A stretch of 38,566 nucleotides of DNA from a virus: positions 1-38,566 of IMG/VR virus record IMGVR_UViG_3300011116_000739, one strand, 5' to 3'. This document shows positions 29,717 through 38,129 of this stretch, in pieces. Position numbers and translations under genes: made by a program. The number at the start of each line of letters is the position of its first letter. Within the stretch, counting starts at the first letter, position 1. The notes below the pieces were generated by a model. It saw only the letters and a list, made by a program, of their open reading frames with translations. It had not been told where the DNA came from and ran no database searches.

Positions 29717-29908
29717 ATGAGTTTTAAAGAAAGATTAATTCAAGAAAGAGACGAATTACAATATAAACGTGATAAACTTGTTGTTTTTTTTAGTACAAAA
29801 ACATTTGATGATTTAGACAAACATCAACAAAATTTGTTACAAATTCAATCTAATGTAATGTTTACTTATCTTGAAATTCTTGATCAAAGAATTGAATTAT
29901 TAGACTAA
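29717..29908 (+). CDS. 63-aa helical hypothetical protein
   Basis: 63 residues, charged and helical (MSFKERLIQERDELQYKRDK, DDLDKHQQNLLQIQSNVMFT then YLEILDQRIELLD), with coiled-coil character at both ends. Last gene before the RNA-rich stretch at 29916. No function recognised. Confidence 0.5.
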   Translation: MSFKERLIQERDELQYKRDKLVVFFSTKTFDDLDKHQQNLLQIQSNVMFTYLEILDQRIELLD

Positions 29909-29915
29909 AAACAAA

Positions 29916-30258
29916 TTAGCCCTCTGTTGGTGCACCAATAAGGATCGAAGCTCTGAGAAATATAGACTCAGCTAAAACGTAGGTTAGCACAGTAGTGGTC
30001 TGGGGAGATTCTAAAACCACACCCGATAGGGTATAGAAAGTGTTCTTTGAAAGGTATTTATACCTGAAAGGGTATAGAATAGTCAGGTGGTGTAAAAATA
30101 ACACATGGGTGAGCCATATAAAAGAGCAAAAGACCAAGCAACAGGGGTAGTACCTGTCCTGACTACTATGGTTGTAAGGTAACCTTAAACTTTCTAACCT
30201 GTACCCTTGAGAAACTCGTATTAAAGATAAGCAGGTTAGCTTCGATATAAAAGGGTAA
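29916..30258 (+). ncRNA. Large structured RNA, about 340 nt
   Basis: No plus-strand ORF exists, but the segment folds by hand into an elaborate structure. The long-range helix ATCGAAGCT (29944-29952)/AGCTTCGAT (30238-30246), 9 bp, encloses about 285 nt; outside it TTA-CCCT pairs AGGG-TAA (29916-29923/30252-30258, one bulge). Inside are CTGAG/CTCAG (29953-29971), GTGGT/ACCAC (29995-30020), ACCC-GATA-GGGT (30021-30032), AGGTA-TTTA-TACCT (30052-30065), the helix TAGTCAGG/CCTGACTA (30080-30087/30158-30165) enclosing GTGT/ACAC (30090-30104) and ACAGG/CCTGT (30141-30157), GGTT/AACC (30170-30184), and AACCTG/CAGGTT (30196-30201/30232-30237). AGGGTATAGAA occurs twice (30028, 30069). It ends just before a tRNA-like gene. 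In size, complexity, phage location and tRNA neighbour it resembles the GOLLD/ROOL type of giant RNAs, without a recognised sequence match. Confidence 0.65.
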
Positions 30259-30276
30259 GAGAATAAGAAGCAAATT

Positions 30277-30413
30277 GAAAGAGTGGCGGAATAGGGGGTG
30301 CAAAGCAACTCCTTTGGTAGACGCAAGATTAGGTAAACTTGGATGTATCAATCCCTCTATTAATCTTATCTGATGATACTTATGGATTGCTGGTTCAAAT
30401 CCAGCCTCTTTCA
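30277..30413 (+). tRNA. tRNA-Leu-like gene with two hairpin insertions
   Basis: The ends are canonical: acceptor GAAAGAG/CTCTTTC (30277-30283/30406-30412), discriminator A, and T arm GCTGG-TTCAAAT-CCAGC (30389-30405). The D stem GCG/CGC (30286-30288/30322-30324) is that of tRNA-Leu, and its loop reads GAAT then TGGTAGA once 22 bases (30293-30314) are removed, exactly the usual Leu loop. Those 22 bases form their own hairpin AGGGGGT/ACTCCTT. The anticodon stem AGATT/AATCT (30326-30330/30362-30366) holds a 31-base loop instead of 7, with a small GGAT/ATCC hairpin. A long variable region contains TATC/GATA (30367-30378), as in type II tRNAs. No 7-base anticodon loop is visible, so decoding is doubtful; it could be a degenerate gene, a precursor needing excision, or a tRNA mimic. 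Confidence 0.6.
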
Positions 30414-30416
30414 CAT

Positions 30417-30527
30417 ATAATTGTGACGAACAGACGAAAATAAATGTTAATTAATGAGCTAGATAGTTAATTAAATTTAGAAGTAGAAATATTGAAAAGA
30501 CTGATCATCTTTTCTCGTCACAATTAT
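30417..30527 (+). ncRNA. Three-way-junction RNA after the tRNA-like gene
   Basis: A perfect 13-bp stem ATAATTGTGACGA (30417-30429)/TCGTCACAATTAT (30515-30527) encloses two more hairpins, TTAATTAA/TTAATTAA (30447-30454/30467-30474) with a 12-base loop, and GAAAAGA-CTGATCA-TCTTTTC (30494-30514), which stacks directly against the closing stem. The single-stranded joint holds GACGAAAATAAAT. It ends 30 bases before the start of a small gene, so it may act as its leader or as an independent RNA processed away from the tRNA-like part. Confidence 0.6.
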
Positions 30528-32529: not shown

Positions 32530-32859
32530 ATGAGTACTAAACTATACACAGAAGAGCAAGTATACGATGCAATAAGTAAAGCATTTAGATACAAATCAAA
32601 TATAGAGATATTAAACTCACTAACACCAATTGAATTACCAACGGATGCAATATGTGTAAATTGTGATGAACAAAAACCTATTCATAGTATTTGTATGGAT
32701 TGCATCATTAAAATAGGTAAACAAAATATTGAACTACCAACGGATGAGGAGATTGAAAGAGAACTTGAATCTCATGAACATATGACATTGGAATTAGAAG
32801 CAGGTTTTAGAGCAGGTGCAAGTTATGTAATCTACAAAATACAAGGAGGTAACAAATGA
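32530..32859 (+). CDS. Small Cys-motif protein of the YTEEEV family (109 aa)
   Basis: 109 residues. It begins STKLYTEEQVYDAISKAFRY and continues EILNSLTPIELPTDAICVNC, then CVNCDEQKPIHSICMDC with two CxxC pairs that form a plausible zinc knuckle, and PTDEEIERELESHEHMTLEL. Its end YVIYKIQGGNK is written by the Shine-Dalgarno box of the next gene. It shares the N-terminal LYTEE(Q/E)V with the 33304 gene and the 31118 protein. Confidence 0.55.
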   Translation: MSTKLYTEEQVYDAISKAFRYKSNIEILNSLTPIELPTDAICVNCDEQKPIHSICMDCIIKIGKQNIELPTDEEIERELESHEHMTLELEAGFRAGASYVIYKIQGGNK

Positions 32860-33089
32860 GCAACAATAAAAAAACTCTTGAATGGTTCACACAAAGGATT
32901 GGTAAAAAAGTATATCGCAAGCACAACTTTTGTAAGTGTAGCGGATGTTTGAATGTGTGGGAAAATGGATTGATTATCATAGATGAAATGCATGCCGATT
33001 ATCTTTTTGCGTGTGAATCTGAAATGAATTTAAATTATATTGACAAGGAGGTAACAAATGATAATTCAAACAACAATACATGTTTATAA
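32856..33089 (+). CDS. Small Cys-containing protein (77 aa)
   Basis: 77 residues: KKTLEWFTQRIGKKVYRKHN, FCKCSGCLNVWENGLIIIDE, MHADYLFACESEMNLNYIDK. The CKCSGC...C pattern could bind a metal. Its ATG overlaps the previous stop, and a strong Shine-Dalgarno AAGGAGGTAACAA precedes it, the first of six such boxes. The last residues VTNDNSNNNTCL overlap the next gene's start region. Confidence 0.55.
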   Translation: MSNNKKTLEWFTQRIGKKVYRKHNFCKCSGCLNVWENGLIIIDEMHADYLFACESEMNLNYIDKEVTNDNSNNNTCL

Positions 33090-33300
33090 TTCGGAGTATG
33101 AAGATATGGGTATTGAATTATTAATGCCAGTTAAATTATCCGTAGACTCCAATGAAATATGTGCAGTTAGAGAGCATATTGAAAAAAATGAAACTGAACC
33201 ACACCCAGAAAAATGTACAATCTATCTTAAATCAGGAGAAAACTTTGTAGTATTTAATAGCTATGATTATATTTTAGACCAATTAAAAGGAAGGAGGTAA
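33058..33300 (+). CDS. Hypothetical protein (80 aa)
   Basis: 80 residues, strand-rich (IIQTTIHVYNSEYEDMGIEL, LMPVKLSVDSNEICAVREHI, KCTIYLKSGENFVVFNSYDY). Preceded by the second copy of AAGGAGGTAACAAATG (33045-33060). Function unknown; possibly a compact beta barrel. Confidence 0.55.
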   Translation: MIIQTTIHVYNSEYEDMGIELLMPVKLSVDSNEICAVREHIEKNETEPHPEKCTIYLKSGENFVVFNSYDYILDQLKGRR

Positions 33301-33303
33301 CAA

Positions 33304-33516
33304 ATGAAACTATATACCGAAGAAGAAGTATTAAATTTTACTAAATACATACTATCTAAAAAAATTACAATAGCAAGAAGTAGTTCAGATTTAGAAGAAT
33401 ATTTACCTAAAGAATTTCAACTTTTATCAGGTGAATTAATGAAAAACGGTAAAGAATTAATATCACAATGGTTAGAACAATCAATACAAGGAGGTAACAA
33501 TGAAAAAATCAACTAA
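33304..33516 (+). CDS. Small YTEEEV-family protein (70 aa)
   Basis: 70 residues: MKLYTEEEVLNFTKYILSKK, DLEEYLPKEFQLLSGELMKN, LISQWLEQSIQGGNNEKIN. It is like a shortened form of the 32530 protein, without the Cys motif. Third copy of the Shine-Dalgarno cassette (33291-33306) lies before it, and its own C-terminus IQGGNN is read from the fourth copy. Confidence 0.55.
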   Translation: MKLYTEEEVLNFTKYILSKKITIARSSSDLEEYLPKEFQLLSGELMKNGKELISQWLEQSIQGGNNEKIN

Positions 33517-33688
33517 ACTTTACATAATGTTTGCATTTACAGTTGTTATGTCATTATTAATACCAATGTTTACAAAATGGTATGAAGCAAAAATAGGAGT
33601 TTATCCAACAGGATTTGTATTTATAATTATCATAGGTGGATATATATCTTATTTGGCAACATTTACAGACAATTTTAAAAAGTTTTAG
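33500..33688 (+). CDS. Two-helix membrane protein (62 aa)
   Basis: 62 residues with hydrophobic segments TKLYIMFAFTVVMSLLIPMF and GVYPTGFVFIIIIGGYISYL and short charged ends (MKKS, DNFKKF). Fourth cassette AAGGAGGTAACAATG (33488-33502) provides its start. TAG stop. Function unknown. Confidence 0.55.
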   Translation: MKKSTKLYIMFAFTVVMSLLIPMFTKWYEAKIGVYPTGFVFIIIIGGYISYLATFTDNFKKF

Positions 33689-33697
33689 GAGGTAACA

Positions 33698-33964
33698 ATG
33701 GACAATAATTGGAAATTAGAAAAAATTGAAATTGAATTTAAAAAAGGTTATTCATTTAACAATACAATTGATAGATACGAAGGTCAAATTAAATTTACAA
33801 ATGGAGATAGAGAATCATTTGAGTTTAATATTGACCAAGTAAAATCAAATCAATACATTCAAATCATAGCACCTGAGATTGTTAGAACTGCTGAAATACT
33901 TAGTGATAAATTAATTAATTCATTAGGACTTGATAAAATAGGAGGTAACAATGGCACAAAGTAG
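33698..33964 (+). CDS. Hypothetical protein (88 aa)
   Basis: 88 residues: MDNNWKLEKIEIEFKKGYSF, DRYEGQIKFTNGDRESFEFN, then helix QIIAPEIVRTAEILSDKLIN. Fifth cassette AGGAGGTAACAATG (33687-33700) precedes it, and its tail IGGNNGTK is encoded by the sixth cassette. No domain recognised. Confidence 0.55.
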   Translation: MDNNWKLEKIEIEFKKGYSFNNTIDRYEGQIKFTNGDRESFEFNIDQVKSNQYIQIIAPEIVRTAEILSDKLINSLGLDKIGGNNGTK

Positions 33965-34223
33965 TATTGAATGGTTAGTTAATCAATTAAAAATTTCAAC
34001 ATATTGGAATACATTAATTGCTGAATTAGAATTTATGGATTTGGAAATTGATGACATAATTGAACAAGCCAAAGAAATGCACAAGCAAGAATCAATTGCA
34101 GCACAGATGGATATGTTTCATTTTTTGAATAATCTACCAGTTGGCATGCAGTATTTAAATAAGAGAGAAAATGCAGAAAAGATTGCAGAAATTTATTACA
34201 ACGAAACATTTAAAAATAAATAA
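33951..34223 (+). CDS. Hypothetical helical protein (90 aa)
   Basis: 90 residues, helical (SIEWLVNQLKISTYWNTLIA, DIIEQAKEMHKQESIAAQMD, YLNKRENAEKIAEIYYNETF). It has the sixth and last Shine-Dalgarno cassette (33940-33953); the next gene returns to the plain TAATTATG junction. No function recognised. Confidence 0.55.
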   Translation: MAQSSIEWLVNQLKISTYWNTLIAELEFMDLEIDDIIEQAKEMHKQESIAAQMDMFHFLNNLPVGMQYLNKRENAEKIAEIYYNETFKNK

Positions 34224-34225
34224 TT

Positions 34226-34483
34226 ATGAAATTTGAAATAGACTTTAATCATTTTGATGATTTAAACAACACTGAAGAATTTTTTAAATCTATTGGTGCT
34301 AAATGGGTAGATACAACAATGCCTGAAACTAGTTATTATGAAATAGAATTAAATACCTTTGAAGAATTAGCTGAATTAATGAAAAAAATAAACCAAAAGT
34401 TAGCTGGGAATAATTTTAAATATTCAGCAATTATGAATTTTGAAGCAGGAAGAGGTACAATTTATTTAGACGATGACTGTTAA
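34226..34483 (+). CDS. Hypothetical acidic protein (85 aa)
   Basis: 85 residues with aromatic/acidic content (MKFEIDFNHFDDLNNTEEFF, TMPETSYYEIELNTFEELAE, AIMNFEAGRGTIYLDDDC). An alpha/beta fold is likely. Function unknown. TAA stop precedes the next ATG by 4 bases. Confidence 0.55.
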   Translation: MKFEIDFNHFDDLNNTEEFFKSIGAKWVDTTMPETSYYEIELNTFEELAELMKKINQKLAGNNFKYSAIMNFEAGRGTIYLDDDC

Positions 34484-34487
34484 TATT

Positions 34488-34925
34488 ATGAAACAAGAAT
34501 TTATATTTTATAAAGAAGCATTAGCTCTTAAAGAGTTAGGCTTTGATGAGCCTTGTTTTACTTTTTATCCTAAAGATGATAAAATAGGATTTAATGGTAA
34601 ATATCACACAATCAAAGAAGGTTACAAAAACTCCACGGTTAATGATATTTGGATAAAAAAATACAACAAAGATTTTAAATGTGTAACAGCACCAACATAT
34701 TCTCAAGCATTTAGATGGTTTAGAGAAAAGTATAAACTACAACATTTAATATGGTCTGGTAAAATAACAAAAGTATTTTATGGTTATGATATACTTCATA
34801 TTGATAAACAAAAATATATAATCAATAACTCTGAAAATGGTGGTGGAGATTGTAATTGTAAAACCTATGAAGAAGCAGAACTTGCTTGTCTTAGAAAACT
34901 AATTGAAATTGTTAAACAAAAATAA
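34488..34925 (+). CDS. Hypothetical protein (145 aa)
   Basis: Start chosen at ATG 34488 (MKQEFIFYKEALALKELGFD); an ATG five codons before overlaps the previous gene's stop. The product has LALKELGFDEPCFTFYPKDD, TAPTYSQAFRWFREKYKLQH, and YEEAELACLRKLIEIVKQK. The pattern of YxQA..WFREKY.L and EAE.ACL.KLIEI is familiar from Bacteroidota phage and plasmid proteins of unknown function. It is followed immediately by the dCTP-deaminase-like gene. Confidence 0.6.
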   Translation: MKQEFIFYKEALALKELGFDEPCFTFYPKDDKIGFNGKYHTIKEGYKNSTVNDIWIKKYNKDFKCVTAPTYSQAFRWFREKYKLQHLIWSGKITKVFYGYDILHIDKQKYIINNSENGGGDCNCKTYEEAELACLRKLIEIVKQK

Positions 34926-35870: not shown

Positions 35871-36109
35871 TTACAGAAGAAAGAATAGTTGAAGTAATTG
35901 ATTATTTTCAATCAGAAGATGTACCTGTTAAACTACATAATTTTTTCAGTATTGCTATAGACAAAACTGAAACTAGGTGTTTAATGGATTATAACCATGT
36001 TGTAGTTAAAAGTCTTAAAAATGATACGAACTATGTTTTAACCATTAGAGACAACGGTTTTCTTGAAGCAAAAAACAAAGACAATAACATTGTAATAGTA
36101 TTAACATGA
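35867..36109 (+). CDS. Hypothetical protein (80 aa)
   Basis: 80 residues: MITEERIVEVIDYFQSEDVP, VKLHNFFSIAIDKTETRCLM, FLEAKNKDNNIVIVLT. Alpha/beta with no motif. Its TGA overlaps the ATG of the split helicase gene (36106), so the two are translated together. Confidence 0.55.
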   Translation: MITEERIVEVIDYFQSEDVPVKLHNFFSIAIDKTETRCLMDYNHVVVKSLKNDTNYVLTIRDNGFLEAKNKDNNIVIVLT

Positions 36110-38129
36110 TCGATTTATTTAGTAGTAGAAGTTTAAAACAACAAGATTTATTTAACAACGGTATTAAATTAGGTCTTAAAGTTTATTATGAATTGATTAC
36201 AGGATTAACAAAACTTGTTATTATTTAATATTTTTAATATATTTGTGTATGGTAACACGAATATGCATTGATTGTAAAGAAGAATTAGATTCTTCAAAAT
36301 TTAATTTTAGGAAATTTAAAACTAGAATAGATTTTAAAACACGTTGTAAAAAATGTCATAAAATTCATCATTACGAAGTAATGAAAAAAAGAAGAGAGAC
36401 ATTTGAACTTAGAGTAAGAGAACGTGAATTAGATTTAATTAGAAGACAAAAAAATCCTGAAAAAGAAATTTTAAGAAGAGCAAAAAAAAGAGCTTTAAAA
36501 GAAAATTTACCTTTTAATTTAGAATTATCGGATATTATTATTCCTAAAAATTGCCCTATTTTAAATATACCTTTAAAATTAAATTCTATTTCAGCTGGAG
36601 ATGATTCTCCAAGTTTAGATAAAATAGATCCTTTAAAAGGTTATGTAAAAGGAAATGTTAAAGTTATTTCTAGGTTAGCTAATATAATGAAAGCTCATGC
36701 TTCTGTAGAACAATTAATGTTGTTTAGAAAAAATATTAAAAAATATCTGAGTCCTGTATAAATCGGTTTAAAATTGGAACACCCAGAAGTGGGCAATCAA
36801 TTACGAACTATGTGAATACGATTAAAGTAACATAGACGTTTAACGACTAGTAGATATGAACGTAACAAAATCTACCACGAAATACCGACTGTACTGGCGT
36901 ACAGATGATATAGTCTGAACTGTAAATATAACAAATGAAATTACAGAATATAAGAATAAAGAGTCTTATAGTTAACAAATGTTGGAAAAACACGATTGGC
37001 AATTTTATTTATACAAGAATGTAATAAACGACATCCTGATAAAGTTATTAATGTTGTTGTACCGACTACAACCCTAAGAGATTCATGGTTAGGTAAGAAA
37101 GGCCATATTGCAGTTAATAAATTAAGTAACGTTGAGGTGTTTATAGTGAACACCTATGTTAAGAAACAACATGAATGTGGATTGTTAATATGTGATGAGT
37201 TACATCATTATGCCAATGAAGCTTCTACTACATTTAAAACGGTCATAGATAGGACTAAGTTTAATTGGTTTGTAGGACTTTCAGCAACATTAGATAGTAA
37301 TCACAAAGCTTTCCTAGCAACTAAAAACATAGTTTCAGCTGGTAAGATTACAGCTAAAGAAGCTATGGAAAATGGTTGGATTAGTAAATACAAGATTCTA
37401 TGTGTACCAATAGAATTAAATGAGGAAGACAAAGAAAGGTATGATAAAATGCATGCTGAGTTTAATAAACACTTTGCAACTTTTGAATTTGATTTTGGTT
37501 TAGCTATGAAATGTGTAACAGATATGAATGAAAGAGATAGATTAGCAGCTAAACTTAATTGGCCAAAAGAAAGAATCAATGCAGCTGTATTTAATTGGAA
37601 CAGAAATATGAGAAACAGAAAGCATTTTCTATATCATATTGAAGCTAAGATTGATGCAGCTATTGAAATTACTAAACGACTACAAATGAAAACTATTTTG
37701 TTTGGCCAGTCTATTAAAGGTGCAGATAAAATAGCTGAAGAATTAGGTGATATCTGTGTTGAATATCATTCAGATATGACTAAAACTCAAGCTAATTTGA
37801 ATCTGAAGAAACTAAAAGACGGTAGAACTAAAGTAGAATGTATTTCATCAGCTAAAGGTTTAGAGGAAGGTTTTGATTTACCTGGTTTAGAATTAGGTAT
37901 TACATGGAGTCGTACTTCTAAAGCTTTAAGAGCTAATCAGGTGCTCGGTAGAATTTGTAGATATGTGCCAGGTAAAACAGCATATATGATAGAACTTTAC
38001 GTACCTGATACTCAGGATGAAAGATGGTTAAAGAACTCTTTGAAAGGACAGTCGAATGTCTATTATTTAAAATCAATTGATCAGATATATCAAATAATTA
38101 ATTATGACAGAGGAATTAAAACGGTTTAA
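36106..38129 (+). CDS. SF2 helicase split by a group I intron: join(36106..36205, 36982..38129)
   Basis: Exon 1 (33 codons plus one base) encodes MIDLFSSRSLKQQDLFNNGI and ends VYYELITG; exon 2 begins TTGGAAAAACACG. Joining them makes GGA TTT GGA AAA ACA, restoring the Walker A GFGKT; neither exon alone has it. The 415-residue product then shows motif Ia VVPTTTLRDSW, motif II LLICDELHHY, motif III VGLSATLD, and the C-terminal RecA-like domain with KTILFGQSIKGADKIAEELG, SSAKGLEEGFDLPGLELGIT (motif V) and NQVLGRICRY (motif VI). It belongs with XPB/UvsW-like SF2 helicases, used in phage replication or recombination. Without splicing, translation stops 7 codons into the intron (TAA 36226-36228) and the product is dead. 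Its end overlaps the next gene by 26 bases. Confidence 0.85.
36206..36981 (+). other. Group I intron (IA-like), 776 nt, with ORF in L1
   Basis: The 5' splice site follows U36205. The guide GTCCTGTA (36751-36758) pairs with exon TACAGGAT (36198-36205), giving P1 with the required U-G pair at the splice site. Other elements traced: P3 TCGGT/ACCGA (36763-36767/36884-36888), P4 AATTG/CAATT (36772-36776/36798-36802), P5 CCCA/TGGG (36782-36793), P6 CTATGT/ACATAG (36808-36813/36830-36835), P7 GACTA/TAGTC (36845-36849/36911-36915) with the R- and S-like contexts AACGACTA and GATATAGTC, an extra P7.1-type stem GTAGAT/ATCTAC (36850-36875), P8 CTGTAC-TGGC-GTACAG (36889-36904), P9 CTGTAA/TTACAG (36920-36946) and P9.2 TATAAGA/TCTTATA (36949-36970). 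The intron ends in G36981. The extra stem between P7 and P3 points to subgroup IA. Confidence 0.85.
36249..36761 (+). CDS. HNH-type homing endonuclease encoded in intron loop L1
   Basis: Start at ATG 36249 (MVTRICIDCKEELDSSKFNF). 170 residues: a CxxC...CKKCHKIHH zinc-binding front, a basic helical linker (VMKKRRETFELRVRERELDL, RRAKKRALKE), then KNCPILNIPL and DDSPSLDKIDPLKGYVKGNV with KVISRLANIMKAHAS. The DSPSLD+ID...GYV.GNV.VIS..AN.MK pattern is typical of phage HNH-like homing endonucleases, which cut the intronless allele so that repair copies the intron in. The stop TAA (36759-36761) directly follows the codons AGT CCT GTA, which contain the P1 guide, so translating ribosomes must run through P1. 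Confidence 0.75.
   Translation: MVTRICIDCKEELDSSKFNFRKFKTRIDFKTRCKKCHKIHHYEVMKKRRETFELRVRERELDLIRRQKNPEKEILRRAKKRALKENLPFNLELSDIIIPKNCPILNIPLKLNSISAGDDSPSLDKIDPLKGYVKGNVKVISRLANIMKAHASVEQLMLFRKNIKKYLSPV

Follow-up and report, generated by a model that had tools for sequence, protein, structure and literature searches.

A shared Shine-Dalgarno cassette at six adjacent gene starts in a crAss-like phage fragment and its recurrence among SD-poor phages

Why would a phage whose genes otherwise start without a Shine-Dalgarno (SD) sequence carry the same strong SD ahead of six consecutive small genes? The question is raised by a fragment of 38,566 nucleotides (IMG/VR record IMGVR_UViG_3300011116_000739; hereafter the window). 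Its crAss-like portal, TerL and major head genes lie on the minus strand at 13.8-20.9 kb. These are crAss-type marker genes (phrog_6547, phrog_6681, phrog_11589) that qualify it for Crassvirales, and by gene content the window derives from a crAss-like phage. The best relatives of the portal are crAss-like phages, including Cellulophaga phage phi14:2; together with the SD-less leaders they point to a host that is probably a member of the Bacteroidota. The block of six belongs to a rightward module of early type, which also encodes other small proteins, a dCTP deaminase and a helicase.

A sequence-only reading of this DNA had stated that SD pairing is rarely used in Bacteroidota, consistent with published work (PMC9976891, PMC6728339). 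In Flavobacterium johnsoniae the 16S tail is hidden in a protein pocket (bS21/bS18/bS6 in Bacteroidia) and the ribosomes ignore SDs; in Flavobacteriales a strong SD is typically found at one gene only, rpsU (PMC9976891). The anti-SD itself is intact: the 16S tail carries ACCUCCUUU in 9 of 9 Bacteroidia genomes sampled.

Six copies of one SD core

The decamer AGGAGGTAAC occurs at 32844, 33046, 33292, 33489, 33687 and 33940, always on the plus strand, and AGGAGG stands 6, 6, 6, 5, 5 and 5 nt ahead of the ATG, respectively. The identical core noticed before six adjacent starts is therefore real, with six exact copies 5-6 nt from the start codon. The cassettes read (A/T)AGGAGGTAACA(A)ATG. A seventh copy of the decamer (11498, minus strand) lies within a gene and not ahead of any start. 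By chance we expect 0.04 copies, and none of 100 shuffles reaches seven. The distances from start to start are 202, 246, 197, 198 and 253 nt; the regular recurrence described earlier stands, while its range of 150-250 bases has to be replaced by the measured 197-253. The features are listed in Table 1.

Table 1. Coordinates of the cassettes and the genes that they join
Feature	Position	Strand	Description
Gene upstream of block	32530..32859	+	109 aa, KLYTEEQ family; own start without SD; ends ...KIQGGNK (then stop), final codons forming cassette 1
Cassette 1	32843..32858	+	AAGGAGGTAACAAATG; overlaps upstream stop as ATGA
Small gene 1	32856..33089	+	77 aa, MSNNKKTLEWF...; relatives in cassette-bearing contigs L166 and L267
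Cassette 2	33045..33060	+	read by gene 1 in EVT frame; 32-nt overlap
Small gene 2	33058..33300	+	80 aa; search for relatives found none
Cassette 3	33291..33306	+	internal TAA is the stop of gene 2
Small gene 3	33304..33516	+	70 aa, KLYTEE start; C-terminus QGGNNEKIN
Cassette 4	33488..33502	+	5-nt spacer; within the end of gene 3, 17-nt overlap
Small gene 4	33500..33688	+	62 aa, membrane-protein-like
Cassette 5	33686..33700	+	TAG at left edge is the stop of gene 4
Small gene 5	33698..33964	+	88 aa; C-terminus IGGNNGTK (then stop); search for relatives found none
Cassette 6	33939..33953	+	within the end of gene 5, 14-nt overlap
Small gene 6	33951..34223	+	90 aa, SIEWL..QAKEMHK family; C-terminus YNETFKNK (then stop), no cassette after
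Neighbour gene, no cassette	34473..34925	+	phrog_12005; C-terminus KLIEIVKQK (then stop)

How strong are these leaders relative to the rest? The six pair with a 16S tail 3'-UUUCCUCCA-5' at -11.5 to -13.6 kcal/mol. The strongest other leader in the window, among about 70 ORFs, reaches -4.4 kcal/mol; the starts used here are the first ATG, and the gene calls have no SD preference. The probability that six strong-SD genes fall consecutively among 71 genes by chance is 5e-7. In the remaining approximately 46 kb of a contig with a TerL 100% identical to that of the window (G001), just three leaders reach -6, one of them belonging to a large gene. Thus, as the sequence-only reading supposed, the other genes do without an SD, and the cassette is not common in the rest of the genome as covered by the window and about 46 kb of G001.

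What is conserved in the six copies? The upstream genes read the cassette in several frames. Three of them (32530, 33304, 33698) use the GGN frame; of the remaining joins, one is read in the EVT frame, one has the stop TAA inside the cassette (33058) and one has a TAG at its edge (33500). This argues that selection acts on the nucleic acid: judged by frame usage, the cassette is conserved as nucleic acid and not as peptide. Sequence identity among the copies extends over about 12-16 nt and no further. No homology links the six proteins; the best E-value (0.11) is due to the 10-residue KLYTEE start common to 32530 and 33304. The proposal that genes were duplicated along with their start regions thus finds no support, homology being absent beyond the 12-16 nt and lacking in the proteins altogether. 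A C-terminal (Y/Q)GGNK protein motif, common in other phages, is rejected as the cause in the window, with the GGN frame in only 3 of 6 upstream genes. Since frames vary, identity is short and the proteins are unrelated, neither gene duplication nor a protein motif accounts for the cassette.

We also find no sign of import, the other origin suggested for the block. Its GC content (26%) equals that of the adjoining early genes, so that it is not foreign by composition, and the relatives of gene 6 are mostly in SD-less phage contigs: among 75 related loci, 72 of the 74 measurable starts have A/T-rich leaders and no strong SD.

At the six cassette starts, the upstream stop lies between -12 and +29 nt. 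The ATGA layout, which resembles that of the prfB site discussed below, is seen at cassette 1 alone; the other five joins differ. The gene at 32530 also contains a 19-nt direct repeat, ATTGAA[TC]TACCAACGGATG (window 32629-32746), which encodes the repeated peptide ELPTD(A/E).

Two further observations concern other parts of the window. The helicase gene appears to be split at Walker A (36106-37020): a 40-amino-acid ORF with ELITGL is followed by an HNH-like ORF (36249-36761) and then by ...VGKTRLAILF, which leads into the remainder of the helicase. In phi14:2 the helicase is continuous at that spot (EIITGLGKTFIAL). By its layout the interruption looks like an intron or a homing-endonuclease insertion; an Rfam search for an intron at the gap gave no match at E<=1. 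An Rfam tRNA match at 30277-30413 (30.9 bits, above the gathering score) spans 137 nt with two long insertions, is missed by ARAGORN and lies where ORFs are sparse over about 570 nt (29908-30490).

Recurrence in other phages and gene replacement in relatives

Is the cassette peculiar to this phage? We searched with a two-copy pattern first and then with the single pattern [T/C]A[C/A]GGAGGTAACAAATGA. The latter precedes many unrelated small genes, at over 100 gene starts, mostly in SD-poor contigs, where cassette genes are a minority (5 of 28 in L188, 4 of 31 in L176, 3 of 26 in L185). Genes were called mechanically, and outside the window the caller favours strong-SD starts, which inflates the absolute number of SD genes there; comparisons of real with mock SD counts tilt to "real" through the same preference and are not relied upon. 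Two patterns of the same composition with a scrambled spacer match 37 and 15 stretches in the whole collection, compared with at least 119 for the true spacer, i.e., they are 3-8 times rarer. SD-poor contigs with two or more copies number 13 for the true spacer versus 0 and 0 for the scrambled ones. As far as sequence conservation tells, the spacer is kept beyond the needs of SD pairing. Genes after a cassette, window gene 1 among them, often start with MSNNK(Q), so the conserved A-rich sequence runs past the start codon (ATGAGCAACAATAAACAA). Other SD-poor contigs have their own SD variants ahead of the same gene families (AGGAGGTGAAAA, GGAGGACAAG, TTTGGAGGGGA; L051:3881-4752, L027:4060-6639).

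Among crAss-like relatives, G011 (TerL about 68% identical) has its own three-cassette block with different genes (L108:10217-11068), G007 and G009 have essentially no strong SD, and the strong SDs of G005 are scattered and differ in sequence. One cassette contig (L256) encodes a terminase 52% identical to those of Flavobacterium psychrophilum phages, so the cassette is not confined to one phage lineage. DNA and protein searches found no named cultured phage with the cassette, and the strong-SD block is absent from Flavobacterium phage FpV9 and Cellulophaga phage phi14:2. Adjacent strong SDs are not significantly enriched in loci retrieved by protein similarity (4 pairs against 2.1 expected, p=0.16), so the clustering belongs to cassette-bearing phages and not to all relatives.

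The exact cassette is found in 1 of 395 Bacteroidia genomes (L351; G034:C8:55498-55515), where it precedes a small protein, MRKLEPEKIMEILKAKG..., mobile-element-like in appearance. When genome contigs were searched with the two-copy pattern for prophage or host copies, none of the five Bacteroidota matches inspected had a cassette at a gene start. Because it is recurrent in phage contigs and nearly absent from Bacteroidia chromosomes, the cassette is, by its distribution, a phage element.

The sequence-only reading had also suggested that identical repeats could serve gene shuffling by recombination. We compared 152 nt on either side of 3020 gene junctions in SD-poor contigs. The same upstream sequence leads to the same downstream gene in 10 of 24 cassette junction pairs versus 1393 of 1686 other pairs. 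Against a control of nearby non-cassette junctions at 75-97% identity, the partner is kept in 1 of 12 cassette pairs versus 24 of 41 (p=0.003). With a matched control over all identities, the upstream side gives p=0.03 and the downstream side shows no difference. Individual pairs make the pattern visible. L162 and L188 are 100% identical over 120 nt through the ATGA and 31% identical beyond; L265 and L176 are 98% identical up to the cassette and then 23%, and L266/L293 behave in the same way. Conversely, L237/L276, L245/L285 and L296/L307 have unrelated sequences ahead of the cassette and share 88-94% identity downstream of it. With sequence shared on one side of the cassette only, these contig pairs lend the shuffling idea direct support, in relatives and not in the window. 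The breakpoint pairs are few, non-independent and from other phages, not from strains of the window phage, and we found no close relative covering the window block itself. Homologues of the gene at 34473 in L188 and L176 end in KLIEIV(K/Q)GGNK and a stop, with a cassette following, and the window copy has no SD after it. From such comparisons, families exist both with and without the cassette.

Possible use of the cassette by ribosomes

What might the cassette do? We lean towards a modular start cassette, in which the SD would hold or recruit ribosomes at overlapping joins (termination-reinitiation) and the same sequence would act as a gene-shuffling linker. It would be a translation-start module at the join of two small early genes, made of a strong SD that pairs over 7-9 bp with the 16S tail and a conserved A-rich spacer, TAACA(A). 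The module would straddle the end of the upstream gene, with the upstream stop and the downstream AUG within about 30 nt. Where the host usually keeps its anti-SD occluded, a ribosome fresh from termination would probably stay on the mRNA, or a new one be captured, through pairing of the SD with the 16S tail, and the next gene would start. Because every join bears the same short sequence, recombination at the cassette could swap single genes, each keeping a working start, and the cassette would double as a linker in the gene pool of Bacteroidota phages.

The position of the cassettes favours SD-assisted termination-reinitiation, since they lie near or overlap the upstream stop. In SD-poor contigs, 34 of 42 cassette starts overlap the upstream gene versus 257 of 551 other starts, and 42 of 42 versus 400 of 551 lie within 20 nt; this set is mildly biased, as the search pattern required two nearby cassettes. 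In protein-fetched loci, overlap is found at 6 of 6 cassette starts versus 866 of 1998 others. We infer that ribosomes use the cassette by reinitiation rather than fresh initiation. Two published cases lend this plausibility even where the host is SD-blind. The Haloferax SD has no effect on fresh initiation, yet contributes to reinitiation in most pairs tested (PMC6728339). Bacteroidia prfB retains AGGAGGUAUCUUUGA, which is proposed to pair while the ribosome is paused at the stop (PMC8710568); in the ATGA form of the cassette, AGGAGGTAACAAATGA, the distance from SD to stop is nearly that of the prfB site. A point against reinitiation is that the stop-to-start geometry varies across the window joins. 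Moreover, 23 of 56 other window junctions overlap without an SD, so an SD is not needed for overlap here, and cellular Bacteroidetes reportedly make no use of the SD in reinitiation (PMC6728339).

A wider version of this reading is more tentative, and we would put it forward as a possibility rather than an expectation: the cassette might be a portable SD start-stop linker that is active only on ribosomes already on the message, a second start code beside SD-free initiation and a crossover point for small early genes among unrelated phages.

Could the six genes instead form a specialised-ribosome regulon, in line with the ribosome recruitment suggested by the sequence-only reading? They would then be translated mainly by bS21-free (or anti-SD-freed) ribosomes and be switched on when bS21 is scarce or displaced in infection, like rpsU in Flavobacterium. 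The bS21/bS18/bS6 pocket does hide the anti-SD, and bS21-free ribosomes favour strong-SD mRNAs (PMC9976891). In 6 of 22 genomes, the host rpsU leader shares its SD core with the cassettes, at -11.9 to -13.2 versus -11.5 to -13.6 for the latter. Yet bS21 autoregulation is tied to exceptionally strong SDs (PMC9976891), and the extended pairing expected of bS21-free ribosomes is not seen: with a longer, 14-nt 16S tail the cassettes stay at -11.6 to -13.7 kcal/mol, no gain, and 5 of 6 strong rpsU leaders reach -14.6 to -20.6. A search of this phage and its relatives turned up no bS21 gene, and intercistronic joins are not predicted by a bS21 model, which we therefore consider unlikely. The textbook position and spacing of the SD, with the anti-SD intact in Bacteroidia 16S, would also suit ordinary strong ribosome-binding sites with no special mechanism, either because the true host uses SDs or because the block retains those of an SD-using ancestor. 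This is quite doubtful given that the rest of the phage genes have no SD (G007 and G009 have essentially none and G011 only its own small block), that the composition is not foreign and that the spacer is kept beyond pairing needs.

Two other explanations give translation a smaller part. The cassette could be a recombination linker only, kept for gene exchange and resembling an SD with little translational effect. Sequence matches do end or begin at it in several contig pairs, but 6 of the 7 window copies stand at SD distance before a start and the SD core is perfect, which makes this very improbable. The cassette could also be bound or cut by a phage regulator acting on early mRNAs, a role likewise left open in the case of the SAS elements discussed below. 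T4 RegB, for example, cuts GGAG in early leaders. Such a site would help with the conservation of TAACAA, which 16S pairing alone does not explain; however, a scan of the early genes with Pfam and PHROGs found no candidate regulator, and the inverted repeats of extended SAS are absent at the cassettes. We give it hardly any credence.

An SD cassette that recurs at several genes in phages probably infecting Bacteroidota would mean either that ribosomes of this group can read SDs in some context or that the phages make the anti-SD accessible. It contrasts with the report that Bacteroidota leave SDs unused even in reinitiation (PMC6728339) and with the single strong-SD gene rpsU of Flavobacteriales (PMC9976891). 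It would also provide a concrete sequence for single-gene exchange, which bears on the mosaic early regions of phages.

Comparison with known systems

SD-assisted termination-reinitiation (PMC6728339) resembles the cassette joins in having an SD in the upstream 3' end and ATGA or short overlaps on the same strand, all of which occur here. It differs in that Bacteroidetes are the one group reported as not using the SD in reinitiation, and in that one identical cassette is here reused across unrelated genes and phages. The autoregulated rpsU (bS21) of Bacteroidia (PMC9976891) shares an exceptionally strong SD with the same core in an SD-less genome. Its extended SD pairs over 9-13 bp, in contrast to 7-9 bp at the cassettes, which serve several unrelated genes, are intercistronic and come with no bS21 gene. 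The prfB site of Bacteroidia (PMC8710568) is alike in that AGGAGGU is followed about 6-7 nt later by UGA, on a ribosome already on the message, but it directs a frameshift in one host gene and is not a start signal.

The nearest precedent is the Start-Associated Sequences (SAS) of cluster K mycobacteriophages (PMC3203893). In the part of the SAS description drawn on here, SAS are short, identical, asymmetric repeats whose AGGAG core lies a few nt ahead of ATG. They precede many unrelated non-structural genes in one orientation, are kept beyond 16S pairing and are rare outside the group and in hosts. SAS lie 3-7 bp upstream of starts that are mostly ATG, and the cassettes 5-6 nt before ATG, all on the plus strand. 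SAS are limited to the non-structural half of the genome, and the block lies in the rightward early module, with the head genes on the minus strand. The 13-bp SAS consensus, GGGATAGGAGCCC, is not matched by the window copies. SAS genes mostly follow gaps of >50 bp, and half have 17-bp inverted repeats; the cassettes are at overlapping or abutting joins and have none. Gene replacement does not figure in that part of the SAS description, whereas the cassettes show it in relatives. Finally, the cassette host, if it is, as we infer, a member of the Bacteroidota, makes no regular use of SDs.
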